Part shown: positions 1 to 9,002 of the stretch, piece by piece
How positions within the stretch are numbered: position 1 is the first letter of the stretch
How the letters are laid out: the number at the start of each line of letters is the position of its first letter
NCBI GenBank assembly: GCA_902793245.1
Contig: CADBCX010000007.1
Span: 1 to 52,022, forward strand
DNA: 52,022 nt
Direction of reading: 5' to 3'
Origin: an uncultured Eubacteriales bacterium
Lineage (GTDB): Bacteria > Bacillota > Clostridia > Christensenellales > Aristaeellaceae
The notes under the pieces: model-generated
Databases searched by the model: none
What the model saw: the letters and a program-made list of their open reading frames with translations, nothing else
What the model was told of the DNA's origin: nothing
Translations under genes and position numbers: made by a program

Positions 1-178
1 CTCGTTTTGATAAACTCGCTTCTCGCTTCCTTGCCTTCGTCCATCTCGCTTGCATCCGTATTCTTCTTGCATAATCCCTGCGGATTTGCATTTAGAAACA
101 CACTCTAGTACCGGTGGCAGTGGCCAGCTGGCATTGATCATTCACAAGCGTCTGCCGAGTCTCAGCACCGGTACAATC

Positions 179-442
179 ATGACCATCTTCGATGGGGTAG
201 TTGTGCTTTTCGACTGGACGCTCGGTGGTTCCCTTCTGTTTTCCGTCATCGCTGTTCTCCTTTGTAGCGGAGCGATCGACCTGATTGATATGCTCTTCAA
301 CAGGAAAGTTGCTCCTGATTGGCTCAACAAATCGATGAACTGGTACAAGCGTATGTCTCCGCAGTTGCGCTATGCAATAGGTATCTTCATTGTCTGTGAG
401 ATTACCATTGTAATGATACTGCATAAGACGTTAATCGTGTAA
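179..442 (+). CDS. Small two-TM membrane protein, hypothetical
   Basis: I do not recognise this short ORF. From the ATG at 179 it encodes about 87 residues with two hydrophobic stretches, one near the N-terminus (GGSLLFSVIAVLLCSGAIDL) and one near the C-terminus (YAIGIFIVCEITIVMIL), joined by a polar linker with two tryptophans. The reading frame also stays open upstream to a TTG at 50, but the upstream 43 residues look non-coding. Neither start has a convincing SD. It lies in an AT-rich, gene-poor region and points away from the minus-strand operon that follows. It may be a real small membrane protein or a fragment of a larger gene cut by rearrangement. Confidence 0.35.
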   Translation: MTIFDGVVVLFDWTLGGSLLFSVIAVLLCSGAIDLIDMLFNRKVAPDWLNKSMNWYKRMSPQLRYAIGIFIVCEITIVMILHKTLIV

Positions 443-727
443 GCCTCTTAGGAGTCGGCGTAGGCCGGCTTCCCAGACTGTCGACAGAGTCCAAGGTCAA
501 CACATCGGACTCTATCATATAAAAATGTAGTAAAGTCAAAGGAATCAGATATTTATGATTAACAATACACATAACATAATCGTGTTCCTCGATACTATTC
601 ATGAGTTGCCTAAAACTCGCCTAATAAGCAAGGTCGGTATATAGATATCTCCCATACCATTTACTTCACAGGTTTTCTACATTCTCTGCGAGGAAAGGGG
701 GTAAAAGAAAAACTAAGCAAGCGATCT
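443..727. other. Gene-less stretch downstream of the metalloprotease operon
   Basis: This is AT-rich DNA between the small plus-strand ORF and the stop codon of the minus-strand HEAGH-protein gene. I see no credible ORF, RNA gene or strong hairpin terminator here. Confidence 0.5.
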
Positions 728-3565
728 TCAAGGTTGGTTTTTAGGAACTGGTGTTTCTTCTTCATGATTTTCGTACAAGCATCGCAGCACTTCTACGTGA
801 GAGTATGCCTTATCGCTTGATCCGCACGCCATTTCATAAATTCTCTTTATTTCATCTCTGCGTCGTGCAATAGTAACAGTAAACCCATCAGGTGGATCAA
901 TGACTTCATTGGAAGCATGTAAGCTATCATCCATTGCCACTTCACGCTTCTTATCCCAATAGGTGTAGCGTCTGTCATGATATATCAACCAAGCATATTC
1001 AATCACTGTCTCCGTGGGATTGGCTACTTTCTGAAGAGTCGAAATCCATGATCTTTCCCGCACTGTCTTGTAGTTCCAATACAGGTTTTCATGTACAAAA
1101 GTGATAAAGTTGTCATAATAACTTCGATTGAGCTTCTCATCACACTTGAACTCATCCATAATCTTCTGTTTTTCTCTGACCAGTATTTCTTGGAGCGTGT
1201 CCAACCCAATTGTCTCAAAAGCTTCTTTCAAGCGGCGACGCGCTTCCCCCCGGCGAAGGTTTTGGGAGCCTGTATTCAAAAGTCCCTTCAGCTCTTCAAA
1301 ACTTTCAGCATATTCCGAAAATAAGATCGCGGCATATACGGCTGTCACTTGCACGCTTGCGAATAAGGTTACCTTGTATTTCGCGAGGTGCTCGCGATTC
1401 TTTCCCACATACTGCTCGAAGCGAAGCCGCAAATAAGCTCTGGAACTCATGCCGCACACCCGAACCATAAATACGTCTGCCGCCACCTCTCCAAATACCA
1501 TTTCTTTTCCAGACAGGAAGCTTTTCGCGCTGCGATCCTGATCCTGATCATCCAATCCAGCTCTGACAGTCAAAATGGCGTTTTGGGCATAGGACAACAA
1601 TTTATCGTTATAGCGTAGCAAGGACTCTCGCCTCAAAGGCTGGAATTCCAGCCAGTTGGCAATGTGAGCCCTAAAAATGTCAAGAATAAAGTCTGGAGAG
1701 CCTGTCAACAATTCAATGAATACTCTGCGGACTATAATGTCCATTTCATCGAAAAAATCATTCGCAATCGCCATTTGCCAGTCTTCATTCATCAAAGTTA
1801 TGCATTTCTCCCTGAATAACTCGTAATCTTCCTTAATTCTGCCGCATATTTTTTCAAATCCCTCGGACAGGGCAAAAAAGGCGTGAATTATCAAAACGCC
1901 ATCTTTATCCTCCTCCGGTTTGCGCAACAGGTACAACAGCCTTCTGTAATTCTTATTGAACATTTCCTTCAGCAGTCTTTGGCAAAACTTTTGCACCGCT
2001 AGCTCGATATAATAATCAACGCGCACCTTTCTCTTCCTGACTCCCACAGAATGGCCCGCCTCGTGAACCAGCATGGGCAAAAGCATTTCAGGTTGACACG
2101 CCTGCTCCAGAGGAACATCGATGCTGACGATTCGTTTATCCGGCGGCAAATGAGAGAAAAACATATACGCGCGCATTGATGAACCGCCCTGCCCATGCAG
2201 AAAAAAAATGTGCTTTCTGTCCGATTTCCTGTATTGGGCATCCCACGCAAGAACCAACTGATTGATTTTTTTCTGATAGCATAACAGCAGTCGCGGCAGG
2301 TAATTATCTACGATCTTGGGATAGCTGGGAGAAATCGTCATTTTTGCGCTTGTATTTAACAGAGATTCCAGCATATGATTCAGCAGATCGCAAAACTTTT
2401 GCGTATCGTCCAGTATTTTATTGTTATCCCCGTTGGCGCATGCCCCGTCCGGATTACTGGATTTCAAAAGCTCCTCCAACAAATCCACAATGTCAATATA
2501 ATGATGATAGACCCATCTGGTATACTTCGATCGTCTCAATGAATCAAACGCGCCAATGCCTTTTACAATCTTCTGAATCGCTCTGTGTTCTTTATAACCT
2601 CTCCCTGAAATTATGCCTTGGTCTTCATCATCCCTGTCATGCTCGTCTCCTTCAACACAGGTTCTTACAGGAAAGCATAACGAGGTTAAGGTAGAATCGC
2701 AATAATCGCCATACCATGTTTTATCTGGTATCGGCTTTTTCGAGGCCAAAATCCCATTGCTTCTGTACAAAGACACCAACTTTGACATCTGTACGTCATA
2801 CGCGAATATGAAATAGTCATTGGTTCCGGGTAGCGTACCTGATTTGAAGCCGCCTGCGGCCAACTCTTTTTCGATCGCGTCGAACAGAATACTGACGTTT
2901 TCTTTACTCTTATCATTCCGGGAAAACGTGATCAAGACACTGTCCAGCTTCTGCGGATTATCGCTTTCCGCGGCATTGAATTCATCAGGTTTCAGGAACA
3001 TTATTGTGTATGAATAGACCTGCCACCTGTTTTGGAGGGCCATTGCCTGCAGCTTATCAATATATTCCTTATACGCTGGCACTGATTCAGCGACATTTTG
3101 GCTCAATCCTATCAATGCTATAGCGCTGGAACCCATTGTAACATAAGCTTTGGTGCCAATAGAGTCATGAAAAGAAGGGCCGTGTATCCCGTTTGCTCCA
3201 GATTCGTAGGTGTTCATTTTCTCCTCCACCCTTTGAGCATAGGAAAAGAGATCGATATCGCGCTTCTCGTCTATCAGAAAAAAACTGATTGCACCAAATT
3301 TGCTCTTCCTGAAATCATCAGCGACAAATCCGTCTATCGCAGGAATCAGAACGCTTTGTTCCATGCTGACGGCCGTATTTTCTATGGTTTCCGCAAGCTT
3401 CTCCATGCTGGCGGCAAGTTCAAAATCAATATAGTCGTAATCCCCAAACGCATCAAATCGAATCGCGTTGGATACCGGCGCGACGGTGCGCTTCTCCTCT
3501 TCCACAGAATTCTTAAAGAGCTTGACGATCACAATATCGTTTCCAACCCTGGACTCCACAGACAC
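728..3565 (-). CDS. Large putative zinc metalloprotease (HEAGH motif), unknown system
   Basis: This 945-residue protein has no signal peptide or membrane segment, so it is probably cytosolic. Near residues 501-505 it carries HEAGH, a classic HExxH zincin motif, preceded by a hydrophobic helix (LLPMLV) and followed by a basic stretch. A second motif, GEVAAD around residues 692-697, resembles the ExxxD third-ligand helix of gluzincins; E693 would be the third zinc ligand. The roughly 190 residues between them are helical and charged, an unusually long insert for known gluzincins. The first 340 residues look alpha/beta but match nothing I recognise. The GTG start follows directly on the TGA of the upstream membrane-protein gene (no gap) with SD GAAGGA inside the end of that gene, so the two are translationally coupled. 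Protease function is inferred from motifs. Confidence 0.85.
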   Translation of the reverse strand: MSVESRVGNDIVIVKLFKNSVEEEKRTVAPVSNAIRFDAFGDYDYIDFELAASMEKLAETIENTAVSMEQSVLIPAIDGFVADDFRKSKFGAISFFLIDEKRDIDLFSYAQRVEEKMNTYESGANGIHGPSFHDSIGTKAYVTMGSSAIALIGLSQNVAESVPAYKEYIDKLQAMALQNRWQVYSYTIMFLKPDEFNAAESDNPQKLDSVLITFSRNDKSKENVSILFDAIEKELAAGGFKSGTLPGTNDYFIFAYDVQMSKLVSLYRSNGILASKKPIPDKTWYGDYCDSTLTSLCFPVRTCVEGDEHDRDDEDQGIISGRGYKEHRAIQKIVKGIGAFDSLRRSKYTRWVYHHYIDIVDLLEELLKSSNPDGACANGDNNKILDDTQKFCDLLNHMLESLLNTSAKMTISPSYPKIVDNYLPRLLLCYQKKINQLVLAWDAQYRKSDRKHIFFLHGQGGSSMRAYMFFSHLPPDKRIVSIDVPLEQACQPEMLLPMLVHEAGHSVGVRKRKVRVDYYIELAVQKFCQRLLKEMFNKNYRRLLYLLRKPEEDKDGVLIIHAFFALSEGFEKICGRIKEDYELFREKCITLMNEDWQMAIANDFFDEMDIIVRRVFIELLTGSPDFILDIFRAHIANWLEFQPLRRESLLRYNDKLLSYAQNAILTVRAGLDDQDQDRSAKSFLSGKEMVFGEVAADVFMVRVCGMSSRAYLRLRFEQYVGKNREHLAKYKVTLFASVQVTAVYAAILFSEYAESFEELKGLLNTGSQNLRRGEARRRLKEAFETIGLDTLQEILVREKQKIMDEFKCDEKLNRSYYDNFITFVHENLYWNYKTVRERSWISTLQKVANPTETVIEYAWLIYHDRRYTYWDKKREVAMDDSLHASNEVIDPPDGFTVTIARRRDEIKRIYEMACGSSDKAYSHVEVLRCLYENHEEETPVPKNQP

Positions 3566-5458
3566 TCAAATTCCTTCTTTCTTTGCCCGCAAGCTTGTTT
3601 GCGCCGAAACGCTCTGTTTTTTTCCTTTTCCTTGGTTTTTTATAGGTGACTTCGCGCGTTTTTTCCCTGCCGCTGCCATTTTCCCCTGAAAGGGTGTATT
3701 GTCAAATTCTTTGCTGTTCAAGTCCGCAGGCGTCGTAACAGTCGGATCCGATTCCGATCTCGGCACAAAACGATTGCGTATTGTGTCAAACGCTCGTTGA
3801 GCATTCAAATAATCCATCTTATTTGTATCTATATAGTTAAACGTCAGGTACAGCTTCCACAGACTGTCTGCCAAATCAAAGCATGGTTTCTTCCATAGCT
3901 CATCACTTGTGTCTTTCAACTCGTTCACATTGATGTATTTGAGATGCAACTCATAACTACAGTTTGGAATACGTGCCACGATCATATGGTAAATCCACAT
4001 CTTCAATAATTTTTTACCATCGGGTTGAGTCTCAAAAATGTCATTCCATGGTGTACCTAAAGCGTATTCGACGTCTTCGATGCAGAAGCGAATATTCTGT
4101 GCATATTGCTTTTCATCGTCATTCGTGCTTTCCGCCCCGGTATCCTGTTGGATGCCTTCTTTCTTTTCTCGCAGGACAGGTCGATAGGCCTCCAGCAAGC
4201 GAGCCGCTATCATCCCACGCATCAACACATTCGTAAGCGTCACGCTGCTTTCGTTATTCTCTTTGAGTTCTTTGAACATAAAGCGAAAATAGTTCCTTTG
4301 CAATTCGTCCTTTACGCCATATGCCGGAGCCCCGAGCAAAAGACCCATGGCAAAAGAGAAATAGGACCATGCGTCTTCCTTTTCATTGGACAACACGGAA
4401 GGTATTTTTTTGCATGCTCTTTCCAACGCTAGCGCGTGATATTTGGCCTGAGCATAAAGGGAGTCGCCCAACGTTGTCCCCTGCGCGTTCTGCATCAATT
4501 GCCGCTTCCACAAAGTCATATCTTTCATAATCGATAAAAAGTCTGGATCCATTGGCCACCTTTTATAATACTGTTCATTATTCTGTGGTCTCTTGTGTCT
4601 TTTCAGGTTCTTGACCTTTTTCAGCAACACGTCCGCCATTTGATAAGCAATATGCTGCGGCGTATGCAGCACATGAAAAAAAACGGGAATCGCCACGCAT
4701 ATCGAGACATGAATCACAGTCGCGACCAGCATCAGCGAGAACAACCGCACCGTCATGAAATAAATTAAAGCCATCAGGACAAACAGCAGCGCGCAAAGAA
4801 AAGGAAGGACCGGAAAATATTCCTGCAGCGTATATGGATTCAAATTAGAACGATGTCTGTCATTTGACAGGCTCAGAACAAGAAGACCCGTCCCCAAAAA
4901 AGAAGTTACAATGGATATGACATTGAGTTCCTGCCTGCACTGGGCAAGAAAGGCCGCCATATCGGTTCTCCATTCCGCGGAAAAAAAGATCATGGCATCG
5001 ACCAGGGTCCTGTTCAGATTTGTCCACACGCCGATATGATAAAGAGAGGAAAGCAGAAAAAACGACCCGAGCAAAAAGAGGAAAAGATAAAAAATGGTCC
5101 AACTGAATTTGAGCCGCGTCTCGTTCTTATCCAAGCTGTAGATGGCCAGCTTCAGATAAGACCAACTGATCGACCAAAGGCCAAAGCAAAGCGAAAGAAG
5201 GAAGTAGAACCACTTAATCCACCTTGCGGAAGGGGACGTCACCGCCCAAAAAATGTTGTGCGGTGAATGGGTGGTCATCATACAAGCCACCACAATGGTG
5301 ACAATACAAATTGTAGATATTGCGTTGATTACTGCCGTAATCCGTCCATACAGCTCCAAATCCCCTTTGATTCCCTGCAAAAGCGTTCCAAAGATGCTGT
5401 TTTTTATTATGCTCCAAAGTGTCCCCGTTCCGTTCTTTTCGTTCGTTTTTTCATGCAT
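3566..5458 (-). CDS. Six-TM membrane protein with large cytosolic C-terminal domain
   Basis: This 630-residue protein is not a recognised family. Six hydrophobic segments sit in the first 262 residues (about 41-61, 83-103, 119-140, 178-197, 216-236, 239-262). A long soluble, mostly helical region with several Trp and Tyr residues follows. The last 35 residues are strongly basic and low in complexity (KKRAKSPIKNQGKGKKQ), which could bind nucleic acid or acidic lipid. The ATG at 5458 has a GGAAGG SD about 11 bases upstream. The gene is second in a three-gene minus-strand operon, between a 78-residue protein and the HEAGH metalloprotease, whose start touches this stop codon. That coupling suggests a membrane-anchored complex; the function is unknown. 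Confidence 0.85.
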   Translation of the reverse strand: MHEKTNEKNGTGTLWSIIKNSIFGTLLQGIKGDLELYGRITAVINAISTICIVTIVVACMMTTHSPHNIFWAVTSPSARWIKWFYFLLSLCFGLWSISWSYLKLAIYSLDKNETRLKFSWTIFYLFLFLLGSFFLLSSLYHIGVWTNLNRTLVDAMIFFSAEWRTDMAAFLAQCRQELNVISIVTSFLGTGLLVLSLSNDRHRSNLNPYTLQEYFPVLPFLCALLFVLMALIYFMTVRLFSLMLVATVIHVSICVAIPVFFHVLHTPQHIAYQMADVLLKKVKNLKRHKRPQNNEQYYKRWPMDPDFLSIMKDMTLWKRQLMQNAQGTTLGDSLYAQAKYHALALERACKKIPSVLSNEKEDAWSYFSFAMGLLLGAPAYGVKDELQRNYFRFMFKELKENNESSVTLTNVLMRGMIAARLLEAYRPVLREKKEGIQQDTGAESTNDDEKQYAQNIRFCIEDVEYALGTPWNDIFETQPDGKKLLKMWIYHMIVARIPNCSYELHLKYINVNELKDTSDELWKKPCFDLADSLWKLYLTFNYIDTNKMDYLNAQRAFDTIRNRFVPRSESDPTVTTPADLNSKEFDNTPFQGKMAAAGKKRAKSPIKNQGKGKKQSVSAQTSLRAKKEGI

Positions 5459-5560
5459 CGCTTATTTGCCTTCCGGATAATGCAGTTTGTAGTGTATCCA
5501 TAATAAAAAGGCCATAGCTGTTAAAATAGGATAACTATGGCAAGAAAACCGCTCTGTGCG

Positions 5561-5797
5561 CTAATCGTCTTTGTTCAGCGCCTCCAGCATTTCAGCTGTG
5601 GGGATGGCGAATACAAACTTCGCTTCAGGGCCTTCGGGAGTATCGCCTTCTTCATATTCATAATCATACAAATTGCAGTTAAATGTACGATATGACCCAG
5701 GAACCAGCCTGAGATTATCAAAGTCTTTTTTCAATCGGTCTGTAATGATCTTTAATTCCTGCTCGGAATAGCGATTGGGTTTTTGCAGATTTTTCAT
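5561..5797 (-). CDS. Small acidic protein, first gene of the metalloprotease operon
   Basis: A 78-residue soluble protein with a strong SD (GGAG, 8-9 bases before the ATG). The N-terminal half is a charged helix (EQELKIITDRLKKDF); the C-terminal half has a tyrosine-rich acidic patch (YDYEYEEGD) and a short hydrophobic strand-helix. I see no known domain. It lies 102 bases upstream of the six-TM gene on the same strand and probably heads that transcript. Its size and charge would fit an adaptor or inhibitor of the downstream proteins, but that is inference only. Confidence 0.65.
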   Translation of the reverse strand: MKNLQKPNRYSEQELKIITDRLKKDFDNLRLVPGSYRTFNCNLYDYEYEEGDTPEGPEAKFVFAIPTAEMLEALNKDD

Positions 5798-6344
5798 ATA
5801 AATATCTCCTCAATGTTTTGTCGGATACGCCCGGAACTTTAATGAAACCAATCGTCGCCCCCGACGCACAGGTTAACCCAGTCTTGGGGATAAACGATCT
5901 GCAACAACGCTTTCTTTGCGCGCCAGAGGCAATTCGCTTTTCTTAACCTCCCGGCCAATTAGTTTCTCTCTGCAATAACCATCCTATGCGAACTCGAGCC
6001 GAAGTGAACCGCTCTTGCCAAAAGCAGACCGACTCAATTTCCTGCCAATACTCCATACAGACCGACGAGAACGATCTGAATTCTTCCTCCGCTATCATAT
6101 CAAATCACATGATACTTTACAAGCCGGATCACAATGAAGCCTTAGCATCTCCCCATCCAAAAAATAGAATCGTCACAGTCTCGTCATGATTTATGCCATT
6201 ACTCTTGTAATTTTCTCGTTGTTCATCAAAAATCCTTTCAAAAGTCTAATTGTCATTAAATTTAACATTTGCCATCCTTGCGATCCACCTGGACTATTGG
6301 CTCTGTCCTCAAAGCATTGTTTTTCGAAGCATAAATCGTTTCAT
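5798..6344. other. AT-rich intergenic region, no supported gene
   Basis: About 550 bases between two minus-strand genes. A 67-codon plus-strand ORF at 5986-6189 has no SD and no protein-like composition. I see no RNA gene or clear promoter for the downstream operon, although one must lie here. Confidence 0.5.
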
Positions 6345-6929
6345 TCATATCCCATCGAAATTGAGCGATGCGCCCTTGGAGATTAGATCCACTAACCCGC
6401 CGTTTACGTATACAACGTCGACCCAGTCATCGCCCAGCCGGTCCTCGCTTTTCATTGCAACAATAAGCGTACTGTCGGATAATTCCCACTGCACGCCCTC
6501 CGCGATATAAATACCGCCCCCATAAAAATGTCCAAATCCTCTTTGGGCCTTATCAATAAAATCCTCCCATACCAACGGACCGGGCTCTCCGTATTTCCCA
6601 GTCAATGCTCTGTTAAGTGTTTCAAAGGTTTCATCATAGTCAATTTCGTTGAAAAAATCATAACTCACCATAAACAACTGACCGTCTACAAAATAGAAAC
6701 ACATTAAGCTTGCATTGATCCCGCAAGCCTGAATTTGGTCATATTCCAATACTTCAATATTACCAAGACTCTTTTTATCCCTTGCCTTTCCTTCCAGCGC
6801 TTGAAGATCATTGATAGTGCTCCTCCATGTAATCCCGGAACGGATGGAAAAATCATCCGCTTTCGAAACTCTGGCAAGACCTCCGAGAAAGAGGAACAAC
6901 AGCACCGTAACCCAGATTTTCTTTAGCAA
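6345..6929 (-). CDS. Secreted protein, hypothetical
   Basis: This 194-residue protein begins with a typical signal peptide (KK, then VTVLLFLFLGGLA, probable cleavage near SKA/DD). The mature part (about 170 residues) alternates short strands and helices, with motifs such as SGITWRSTINDLQALEG, WEDFIDKAQ and WELSDSTLIVAM. It resembles exported bacterial proteins in which a conserved beta domain measures 'ITW..S..ef...', but I cannot name a family. The start is TTG; a strong GGAGGG SD 7 bases upstream fixes it. No partner lies within 500 bases, so it is probably monocistronic. Confidence 0.75.
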   Translation of the reverse strand: MLKKIWVTVLLFLFLGGLARVSKADDFSIRSGITWRSTINDLQALEGKARDKKSLGNIEVLEYDQIQACGINASLMCFYFVDGQLFMVSYDFFNEIDYDETFETLNRALTGKYGEPGPLVWEDFIDKAQRGFGHFYGGGIYIAEGVQWELSDSTLIVAMKSEDRLGDDWVDVVYVNGGLVDLISKGASLNFDGI

Positions 6930-7326
6930 AGATCAGCCCTCCATCTTAATCAGAACACATATATAGATTAAAGTATTACGGAAAATAGAATTTGGTTCTA
7001 TTTTCTCCAATATATTGTTATAAATATAGACATCAAGCAAGAATGAAAATGCAAATATTCAAGGTATATATTTCCATAATCATAACATATACACCGCTAC
7101 ATAAAAGGCAGATGCCCCAAATCTCTCATCACAAAATATCTGTGTCATCATTCTGTTGTTTTCGTCCAAACTTCCATCCGAAATAATTCGTGCCCGAAAA
7201 TTTCTCTCCTGTTATCTACTTAGCTGGATTTAGGTGGATTCAGGTTCTAGTTGTCACTGCGATTCGTACAGGTATAAATCCTTTTTCTGAAACGCCAAGA
7301 GTGTTTTAGTGAATAATATTAAGAAG

Positions 7327-7355
7327 TCCGTCCGAAGACTGTGTATTCGGATGGA
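7327..7355. repeat. Hairpin copy 1 (duplicate of the tRNA-Val 3' hairpin)
   Basis: An imperfect inverted repeat, TCCGTCCGAA / TTCGGATGGA, with a short loop. About 50 bases around it, from GTGAATAAT on the left to TTTTGGT on the right, match the DNA just 3' of tRNA-Val at 8542-8595. It is a divergent direct repeat of that region. Confidence 0.6.
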
Positions 7356-7834
7356 TTTTGGTCAGACTATCCGAAAACATACACAGATCTCATAGAGAGC
7401 CATCAACGGTCCTTGTTCAAAGGTTTTATCTGGGAAATGATTTTCAAAGGTAAGCGCCCAATAATCCCCGTAGTGCGCAGAGTGCACAATTATGACAATA
7501 GAGATCTGGCTTGGAAGAGGTGTTGTTCATGGCTGGTCTTGGCAAAGCGTTGGGATATGTAGGATCGCAGGGCATATATACAGGTGTTTTTCATGACTGG
7601 TTCTTCCCCCTCTTTCGTCACTTGCGACTGTCCAGAAAGCCCAAACAGCCCAAGCAGCCGCTCCTTTTATTGTAACGAAATCAGAGGGCACATGCCATAA
7701 GGCAAACACCCTATTTGGGAATTCGCCTTCAAAAAGGGGTTGAAATCAGGCTAAATCCATGAAAACCAAAAGGATTTTGCTCCGTTCATGTCGAATTATA
7801 TAGGTGAATGAGAGCGAGGAAGGTAGTGAGCGGC

Positions 7835-8183
7835 ATGGAGGAAGCGAAGGTACTGCGCATAGCTCTGGAGGCTCTCCAGGAGCAAATGACCATGCTGCAA
7901 AAAACGCTGGAACGGCTGACAAAACCAAAATAAGCAGAAGAACGAGCAGATAGAAGAACTGACACAGAGGTATACCATGGACGAAAAGCCAAAAATGAAG
8001 CAACGGTGCCTGTGCCCCATGAGATTCTACACAAACATAGAAGCCAGTGGCGGCACATGCACTGTCTCTACACGCCACAAGTTGATAGTCTTCCGATCTT
8101 ACCAGTTAATAACTAAACATACCCCTACTGTAGCAGTGAAAACGATGCAGCCACACACCATTTTTGATGATTTATATAAATAA
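7835..8183 (+). pseudogene. Frameshifted transposase N-terminus, IS66 TnpC-like relic
   Basis: The frame from ATG 7835 gives a leucine-zipper helix (LEALQEQMTMLQKTLERL) and stops after 32 codons. The next frame continues the coiled coil without interruption from 7932 (KQKNEQIEELTQ), then degenerates. A coiled coil rich in Q, E and L at the start of an ORF is the usual beginning of IS66-family TnpC, and a single frameshift would rejoin the halves. No catalytic region, tnpB or terminal inverted repeats are visible. The family call is tentative; a fragment of another coiled-coil gene is possible. Confidence 0.3.
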
Positions 8184-8560
8184 TGAGCGAAATGATGTGA
8201 GTAATATAGAAATTGAGGCTGTTTTAAAATGGCTTATTATGATATTCTTGAAACAAGTCTCTTCATGTTGCAATATGTTTTGAGCATTTAACCGACTGAT
8301 AGCAATCCCCTATCTTCGGATTATTGCGTCGACCTGGGATTGTTAGGAAAGGGGGGTATGAAAAGTATATAAGGGATCTTAAAGGATTGAGGTAACAACA
8401 GCGCAATAGTGGCGTGTCTCGCGGTAAAATGCACTCACGACACAAACTATAACACAGACATCTGAAAATGCCAAATTTCCAATGAATTTTACTCTACCGA
8501 ATACGGTTCAATTCCTGTTTCTACAGCATCAAAGGCAATTTTGTGAATAATGTACAAACA

Positions 8561-8588
8561 TCCGTCCGAAAACTGTGTTTTCGGACGG
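8561..8588 (-). terminator. Hairpin 3' of tRNA-Val
   Basis: Perfect 11-base arms (TCCGTCCGAAA / TTTCGGACGGA) with a 6-base loop lie 3 bases beyond the encoded CCA end of tRNA-Val. Only a weak T-rich tail follows in the direction of transcription, so it may be a processing signal or a weak terminator. Confidence 0.5.
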
Positions 8589-8591
8589 ATT

Positions 8592-8667
8592 GTGGTGCAC
8601 CGTGCTGGACTCGAACCAGCGACCCCCGCGATGTGAACACGATGCTCTACCGACTGAGCCAACGGTG
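8592..8667 (-). tRNA. tRNA-Val (anticodon CAC)
   Basis: A complete 76-base cloverleaf with encoded CCA: acceptor GCACCGT/ACGGTGC with discriminator A, D arm GCTC-AGTCGGTA-GAGC, anticodon stem around loop TTCACAT (anticodon CAC, reads GUG) and a T arm with loop TTCGAGT. It is third in a short transcript behind two broken tRNA copies and a consensus promoter at 8883-8911. It marks the boundary between the AT-rich island and the GC-rich chromosome, which is a common position for integration. Confidence 0.95.
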
Positions 8668-8729
8668 CATATTGGGTAATTTTGTCACATGACTATTCAG
8701 TTTTAGTTGGCCAATCTGGTCAGTGGGCT

Positions 8730-8753
8730 CTACCAACTGAGCCATGCGACCAT
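8730..8753 (-). pseudogene. tRNA 5'-half relic, copy 2
   Basis: On the minus strand this reads GGTCGCATGGCTCAGTTGGTAG followed by AGC: a tRNA 5' acceptor strand, U8-type linker and full D arm. The anticodon arm, T arm and 3' acceptor strand (TGCGACC) are absent downstream. The same 24 bases recur exactly 100 bases upstream. Confidence 0.6.
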
Positions 8754-8829
8754 GATAACCGGGACTTGATATTTAGTTTTTCTGATCTCATGTCCCGGCT
8801 GACGTTCCATGCAGAGGAACCAGTATGGA

Positions 8830-8853
8830 CTACCAACTGAGCCATGCGACCAT
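8830..8853 (-). pseudogene. tRNA 5'-half relic, copy 1
   Basis: Identical 24-base tRNA 5' segment (acceptor strand plus D loop), but here the 3' side of the D stem is already broken (GTCC instead of GAGC). It lies about 23 bases downstream of the inferred transcription start of the tRNA-Val transcript. Confidence 0.6.
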
Positions 8854-8882
8854 ATGAAGCTGTTGTCTTGACGACAAGGGTT

Positions 8883-8911
8883 ATTATAGCACGTTCGGGG
8901 AGGGTTGTCAA
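8883..8911 (-). promoter_or_regulatory. Consensus sigma-A promoter of the tRNA-Val transcript
   Basis: On the minus strand, TTGACA and TATAAT are separated by exactly 17 bases, a perfect match at both hexamers. It directs transcription through both tRNA relics and tRNA-Val. Confidence 0.9.
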
Positions 8912-9002
8912 GGTTTTGGGAGAAATTTTTGGGAAGAGCGGGGGCGACGGCCTCCGCCGACCCTGGCGGGGCGCTGGAAGGGGCTTACCCACGGGGGAAC
9001 CA

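Follow-up and report, generated by a model that had tools for sequence, protein, structure and literature searches.

Organization of the locus

What role might a giant protein with a zincin-like motif play when its gene directly abuts that of a predicted membrane protein? This question is raised by a locus of an uncultured Eubacteriales bacterium (assembly GCA_902793245.1, here designated G000). The window analysed is the whole of contig CADBCX010000007.1 (52,022 nucleotides), which ends at base 1, on the downstream side of the gene for the giant protein. All three genes of interest lie on the minus strand, and in order of transcription they are a gene for a small acidic protein of 78 residues (5561..5797, running from 5797 to 5561, with an ATG start and GAGGAG upstream of it), a gene for a 630-residue protein (3566..5458, running from 5458 to 3566, ATG start) and a gene for a 945-residue protein (728..3565, GTG start). 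The last of these carries the motif HEAGH at residues 501-505 (2051..2065) and EVAAD at residues 693-697 (1475..1489). The answer put forward here, tentatively and at somewhat less than an even chance, is that the locus represents one version of a modular conflict system, probably anti-phage and cell-sacrificing, whose constant component, the HExxH protein, controls a toxic effector. What was computed comprises the genes themselves, their distant family, the conserved HExxH motif and the exchange of the partner gene.

The 945- and 630-residue open reading frames (ORFs) are not products of chance, since no stop-free run exceeded 225 residues when window 1-9000 was shuffled 200 times by mononucleotide; furthermore, the GC content of the three codon positions is unequal in both genes. 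The stop codon of the 630-residue gene ends at 3566 and the GTG of the 945-residue gene lies at 3565, and this zero spacing suggests translational coupling of the two. An earlier reading of the same DNA, made from its letters alone (the sequence-only reading), had proposed a three-gene operon. The two large genes indeed abut, while the 78-residue gene is separated by 102 nucleotides, and because this spacer holds a terminator-like hairpin the three-gene operon is unproven.

The 630-residue protein displays six hydropathy peaks, at residues 43-61, 84-102, 121-139, 180-198, 217-235 and 239-257, none of them beyond residue 257, on the Kyte-Doolittle scale with a window of 19 residues and a threshold of 1.2; at a threshold of 1.6, with adjacent peaks merged, four are listed. 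Its tail is visibly rich in Lys and Arg. The sequence-only reading had described correctly the six-transmembrane (six-TM) protein with its basic tail, the two motifs of the 945-residue protein (present in the ORF translation), the touching start and stop codons and the acidic nature of the small protein, whose net charge is -5. It had recognised neither large protein, and the present searches agree: no significant match was returned for the 945-, 630- or 78-residue protein in Pfam, NCBIfam, PADLOC or PHROGs, and a search of PDB sequences went no lower than E 0.28 with the HExxH protein and E 1.2 with the 630-residue protein.

Distant relatives of the HExxH protein

Used as a single-sequence query, the window protein retrieved only itself among 291 genomes of its class at E 0.001, and nothing in genome_contigs, plasmids, phages or viral contigs. 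A joined tblastn query of 396 genomes of the same order returned a weak match covering the HEAGH segment in a 958-residue frame of genome G1016 (E 0.042), and the score of the HEAGH segment of the window protein against the G1016 protein was reached by none of 500 shuffles. A two-row profile of this segment (A3) identified two additional proteins in the 291 class genomes, i.e., those of G084 (935 residues from the first start codon; E 1.5e-16) and G051 (1032 residues; E 2.5e-4). All three relatives thus belong to the class of the window genome.

Against a profile of the three relatives, the window protein scored 15.9 bits (residues 424-552) and ranked first of 1001 in a comparison with shuffles of itself, the matching segment extending approximately 75 residues upstream of HExxH. 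BLASTP of the window and G1016 proteins aligned 101 residues with E 1.4e-4. The G1016 and G084 proteins, with 28% identity over 947 columns (E about 1e-96), are the only pair that align along nearly their whole length. The window protein combines similarity beyond chance around HExxH with a length in the range of ~930-1030 residues and a directly adjoining partner gene, and by these sequence features it is a distant member of the same family.

The remaining candidates of these searches were set aside. In 150 relatives searched with the window protein at E 1, seven weak matches were obtained besides the window protein itself, and the two loci that were read (L023 and L025) were judged unrelated. 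With E allowed up to 0.1, the search of the order matched 9 of 396 genomes, among which G000 and G1016 were accepted, G614 was rejected upon reading its locus and six were judged from the results table. With the A3 profile and E limited to 0.05, 6 of 398 genomes of the phylum gave a match; five of these matches lie in frames no longer than 123 residues, and only that of G000 is credible. In the class, 12 of the 291 genomes gave one, and nine of these (E between 9e-4 and 0.046) were rejected on their table entries, leaving G000, G084 and G051. Further searches of 65 and 66 genomes found only G084 and G051 again, plus three weak matches. A search with the G1016 protein gave no match but its own among 41 genomes from the family of G1016, and none in viral contigs, plasmids or phages; the G084 and G051 proteins matched nothing in plasmids, and the latter nothing in phages. 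Scans of viral contigs with two alignments (A2 and A5) confirmed nothing, while the pattern HExGHxxGxRxRxxR occurred there in 30 stretches, none of which was recognised as a relative when the four proteins were compared with them by tblastn (lowest E 0.036). Several viral contigs (L171-L198) encode proteins of ~300 residues with HELGHxTGHxxRLxR...EELVAE, which have the HExGHxxG pattern in common with the window protein and which we take to be ArdC-like in appearance.

Exchange of the partner gene

In all three relatives the next gene downstream encodes a SIR2_2 domain, with scores of 43.9 (G1016), 46.2 (G084) and 60.3 bits (G051) versus a Pfam cut-off of 24.5. The two genes overlap by 41 nucleotides in G1016, and are spaced by 17 nucleotides in G084 and by 3 in G051. 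This SIR2_2 match is the sole one in the genomes of G084 and of G051, the two family genomes in which such matches were counted, and only two of 14 control genomes possess any, so that adjacency by chance is very unlikely.

The three SIR2 partners are mutually homologous and retain GAG[LV]T, [TN]YN[FY]D and HVHG. Two of them match SIR2 or ThsA models of PADLOC (E 0.0012 and 1.2e-8), the better match being that of the G084 partner to the Thoeris effector ThsA. They are predicted to be NAD hydrolases. In a study of ThsA (PMC7272460), either of the substitutions N112A and H152A led to loss of NAD cleavage; N112A also abolished defence, and the authors caution that H152A disturbs the oligomer as well. 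In our reading, ThsA Asn112 and His152 probably correspond to the Asn of YN[FY]D and the His of HVHG. The G084 partner has no match in plasmids. The G051 partner has two; the first is a SIR2 gene with a large neighbour in opposite orientation, for which no Pfam match was obtained, and the second is unannotated.

No SIR2 match was found by Pfam among the neighbours of the HExxH gene in the window, and for this reason the window locus is not classed as a SIR2-effector system. Its adjoining gene is that of the six-TM protein, a candidate effector. The sequence-only reading had looked to conserved co-occurrence of the six-TM and HEAGH proteins for support; this expectation failed, the six-TM partner being present in none of the three relatives. 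Matches to the 630-residue protein at E up to 1 occurred in 40 of 299 phylum genomes, of which only its own is credible, the others being judged from the table; nothing was found in plasmids or viral contigs, and BLASTP revealed no similarity to the SIR2 partners (best E 1.5). The partner is exchanged across the family, i.e., a predicted NADase in the relatives and a membrane protein in the window, and it is because of this difference in neighbours that the HExxH protein is regarded as constant and its neighbour as exchangeable.

Proposed mechanism and direction of control

In the modular conflict system proposed here, the constant part would be the HExxH protein of 935-1032 residues, probably cytosolic. 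Most likely it is a zincin-type, zinc-dependent peptidase whose HExxH helix is separated by a large insert from an acidic [E/D]xxxD motif further along the chain. A signal of the invader would be sensed by this protein, perhaps with its N-terminal part or the upstream-encoded small protein as the receiver, and the HExxH protein would then free the toxic activity of the adjoining effector, most simply by cleavage. The effector would be the SIR2-type predicted NAD hydrolase in the three relatives and, in the window, the six-TM protein, which would damage the membrane. Beyond the computed features, we infer that the HExxH protein would bind zinc, act as a protease, sense invaders and activate its effector by cleavage, that the six-TM protein would damage the membrane and that the locus would protect against phages; the membrane tethering suggested by the sequence-only reading is likewise conjecture. 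Control may run by activation through cleavage, by restraint or by non-enzymatic sensing, with the largest share given to activation.

The tight coupling of two genes in all four loci and the effector-type partners in three of them would equally suit an arrangement resembling a toxin-antitoxin system, in which the HExxH protein restrains the effector by binding or continuous degradation until its loss or inhibition, caused by a phage, frees the effector. An antitoxin of 935-1032 residues would be unusual, and we regard such restraint as rather unlikely.

The candidate metal site

Gluzincins are metallopeptidases with HExxH plus a downstream ExxxD, and in most classical members the gap between HExxH and the ligand is a few tens of residues. 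In the window protein, 187 residues separate the second His of HEAGH from E693, in good agreement with the roughly 190 residues given by the sequence-only reading. A MAFFT alignment of the four proteins contains only 26 invariant columns, among which are H501, E502, H505, R515 and D697; the relatives' motifs are HECGH, HECAH and HECFH. The HExxH residues are thus conserved in homologues, a check for which the sequence-only reading had called. The motif is located at 53-60% of the protein length in all four.

The window EVAAD is aligned with DIYSD, DVYSD and ECYAD of the relatives, such that the residue at position 693 is acidic throughout, i.e., Glu in the window and G051 proteins and Asp in those of G1016 and G084. 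The stretch from the second His to [E/D]xx[AS]D measures 212 residues in the G084 protein and 248 in that of G051. For G1016 two matches to the pattern are listed, at 177 and at 228, and a DIYSD overlapping the latter is the one taken into the four-way alignment. E693 and D697 lie outside the segment used for finding the relatives. The single local match of the C-terminal half of the window protein to the profile of the relatives starts at VFGEVAADVF, with -0.3 bits. Single-sequence AlphaFold models of the window protein (mean pLDDT 34.6 and 42.8) are too poor for judging the site; the second places strands before HEAGH and a helix over the HEAGH segment, a block with pLDDT 48-56. Of the gluzincin ligand set claimed by the sequence-only reading, the HExxH part stands, being kept in all three relatives. 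A complete three-ligand site in the window protein is a candidate and not established, because E693 is replaced by Asp in two of the four proteins and its alignment is not significant alone.

The family shares with gluzincins the HExxH motif in four of four members, the strands followed by a HEAGH helix (in a low-confidence model of the window protein) and the later acidic [E/D]xx[AS]D. It differs from them in a gap of 177-248 residues, in Asp for Glu in two members and in matching no Pfam or NCBIfam peptidase family. A third-ligand position that varies between Glu and Asp and is poorly aligned, in a protein far bigger than a peptidase requires, would fit a large sensor or scaffold with a structural or degenerate zincin-like site, signalling to the effector by binding and not by proteolysis. 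Set against this is the retention of His, Glu and His in all four proteins despite so few invariant columns. The profile that found two of the three relatives itself contained the HExxH motif and so favours motif-bearing matches, which weakens that argument; a role of this kind is nonetheless considered improbable, to about the same degree as restraint.

Small upstream proteins and hairpins

Just upstream of the HExxH gene, each relative also possesses a small ORF, of 72 residues in G1016 (L039:8932-9150), 88 in G084 (L211:4695-4961) and 79, or 67 from an internal ATG, in G051 (L212:11207-11446). A purine-rich stretch precedes the start of the small ORF in all four loci. BLASTP detected no similarity among the four proteins (best pairwise E 0.94), their net charges are -5, -7, +1 and 0, so that only two are acidic, and they end in ALNKDD, NPDDGV, RRGGGS and ANKIFE. 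The 78-residue protein has no match in viral contigs.

The 102-nucleotide spacer between the 78- and 630-residue genes (5459..5560, minus strand) contains the hairpin GCCATAG...CTATGGC followed by CTTTTTATTAT, which, from its sequence and fold, looks like an intrinsic terminator or attenuator. Its fold is not significant by itself (z -0.99, with 27 of 200 shuffles folding as well), and it is not in the output of a terminator scan whose loop limit was 8. Strong hairpins, equalled by none of 200 shuffles in either case, lie between the small and the large gene in G1016 (z -4.78; U-run present) and in G051 (z -4.93; no U-run), and a weak one lies there in G084 (11 of 200 shuffles).

In Kaur et al. 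2020 (PMC7159879), zincin-like peptidases are described as adjoining small, rapidly diverging proteins which they cleave. By this analogy, it is a fair guess, and no more, that the small upstream protein serves as a substrate or bait of the HExxH protein. A more far-reaching form of the proposal is that these loci constitute an undescribed class of immune system, with a long-gap HExxH switch, a small hypervariable upstream protein (with its own hairpin in some loci) as substrate or bait, and exchanged SIR2 or membrane-breaching six-TM effectors activated by proteolysis; in its entirety this is speculative, and we consider it on the unlikely side.

Genomic surroundings

Per kilobase, the GC content is 42-46% in window 1-9000 versus 53-68% in the rest, and an intact tRNA-Val gene is positioned at the boundary (8593-8668), in line with the AT-rich island beside a tRNA noted in the sequence-only reading. 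Two repeat pieces, 8853-8821 and 8753-8721, resemble the 5' part of this tRNA-Val, the second at ~70% over 33 nucleotides; Rfam recognised only the intact tRNA. A promoter consensus matching at 12 of 12 positions (8911-8883) is followed by the two tRNA-like pieces and then by tRNA-Val, although promoter-like sites overall are no commoner than in shuffles. Promoter, tRNA-like pieces and tRNA-Val together may be traces of insertions that took place repeatedly at a tRNA gene. The suggestion in the sequence-only reading of a conflict system on an acquired island has gained support, since HExxH is kept and a SIR2_2 gene adjoins in three of three relatives, a ThsA model is matched by one of these SIR2_2 partners, and the AT-rich region has tRNA-like pieces at its border.

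Upstream of the HExxH gene in G1016, within ~5 kb, are a DDE transposase gene and a gene for an AAA ATPase (L039 11691-13675, minus strand; AAA_15 1.9e-19, PADLOC PD-T4-4_A 1.6e-22 and AriA 6.9e-21). The latter lies 3.4 kb from the HExxH gene; among the relatives, the PADLOC scan of neighbours covered G1016. This ATPase gene is followed by that of a 195-residue protein that matches neither Pfam nor PADLOC, and the two possibly form another defence pair.

Other features of the window include a 92-nucleotide direct repeat, 73% identical, at 7271-7362 and 8505-8596, with a hairpin of the type TCCGTCCGAA... in both copies, one of which stands directly after tRNA-Val. A 194-residue protein (6345-6929, minus strand, TTG start) has a signal-peptide-like N-terminus and no Pfam match above the cut-off. 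Near the contig end, a 130-residue ORF (50-442, plus strand) matches positions 115-187 of the 205 of the YitT membrane-protein model (1.2e-7) and is possibly a truncated gene. The G000 assembly is fragmented (3.48 Mb, 366 contigs, 83.75% complete, 5.13% contaminated), and contamination may be the source of the G1016 or G000 contigs.

Evidence against a conflict role and a single family

A number of observations weigh against the proposal of a modular conflict system. BLASTP of the window protein with the G084 or G051 protein yields nothing at E 0.01, and the link between G051 and G1016 is short (34 residues, E 7e-4). Outside residues ~424-552 the similarity to the G1016 protein fails, the score of the N-terminal half being attained by 202 of 500 shuffles and that of the C-terminal half by 47 of 500; against the profile of the three relatives, 39 of 1000 shuffles of the C-terminal half score at least as high as the real sequence, which is not significant. 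The family numbers four members from one class, two of which carry Asp at the candidate third ligand. The partner differs in position as well as in kind, the six-TM gene being upstream of the HExxH gene and the SIR2 genes downstream, and the small upstream ORFs of the four loci may have arisen by chance. PADLOC models match none of the four HExxH proteins, and those of the relatives have only chance-level matches in Pfam, NCBIfam and PHROGs (lowest E 0.0011, in NCBIfam, at 18.3 bits against a cut-off of 550). The loci of the relatives are not clear defence islands; for example, the G051 copy adjoins a class I tRNA-synthetase gene and the G084 copy a xylose-isomerase-like gene.

As significant similarity is limited to ~130 residues, the flanking halves fail shuffle tests and the partner differs, the window pair might be a system distinct from the SIR2 pairs, similar to them in the zincin core alone, with the relatives forming a separate family. 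This is judged quite unlikely, as the four proteins are of similar length (935-1032 residues), carry HExxH at a similar relative position and a far-off [E/D]xx[AS]D, and share a segment that reaches well upstream of HExxH and beats all shuffles. The metabolic or translation genes beside two relatives, together with the six-TM partner in the window, would also accord with a membrane protease system for housekeeping or surface remodelling, without a conflict role, in which case the SIR2 neighbours would reflect different biology. Such a role appears very improbable in view of the SIR2_2 partner in three of three relatives, the AT-rich, tRNA-flanked region of the window and the patchy distribution, with three further members in 2000 genomes (a figure that includes repeats, queries of different sensitivity and some searches for other proteins).

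Comparison with known systems and implications

The constant partner of Thoeris is a TIR protein. The relatives resemble Thoeris and other systems with SIR2 effectors in that their partners carry a SIR2-type domain, but the constant partner of the present family is a giant HExxH protein, and the window encodes a six-TM protein without an adjoining SIR2 gene. The zincin peptide-processing modules of NTP-dependent conflict systems, as presented by Kaur et al., resemble the present loci in placing a small, diverging protein close to one that is zincin-like; they differ in that none of the four small proteins found here has an FxSxx-type end and in that the zincin-like protein is here directly paired with an effector-like gene. 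Inspection of the ORF lists by eye, without a profile search aimed at them, recognised no genes of the ternary vWA/MoxR/FtsH type at these loci. A search of PDB sequences with a four-member profile returned nothing below E 0.1. No paper describing a giant HExxH protein paired with SIR2 or a six-TM protein was recognised by its title or the opening of its abstract in the open-access literature, a scope that excludes most subscription journals and bioRxiv preprints. The combination of a giant zincin-like constant part with a SIR2 or membrane partner is unrecognised by Pfam, NCBIfam, PADLOC and PHROGs.

A constant sensor combined with exchangeable killers is a recurrent theme among defence systems. 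The four defined loci make the present proposal testable, and it provides a first functional hypothesis for a group of unannotated large proteins, which, if the proposal is true, would act as a bacterial proteolytic immune switch.

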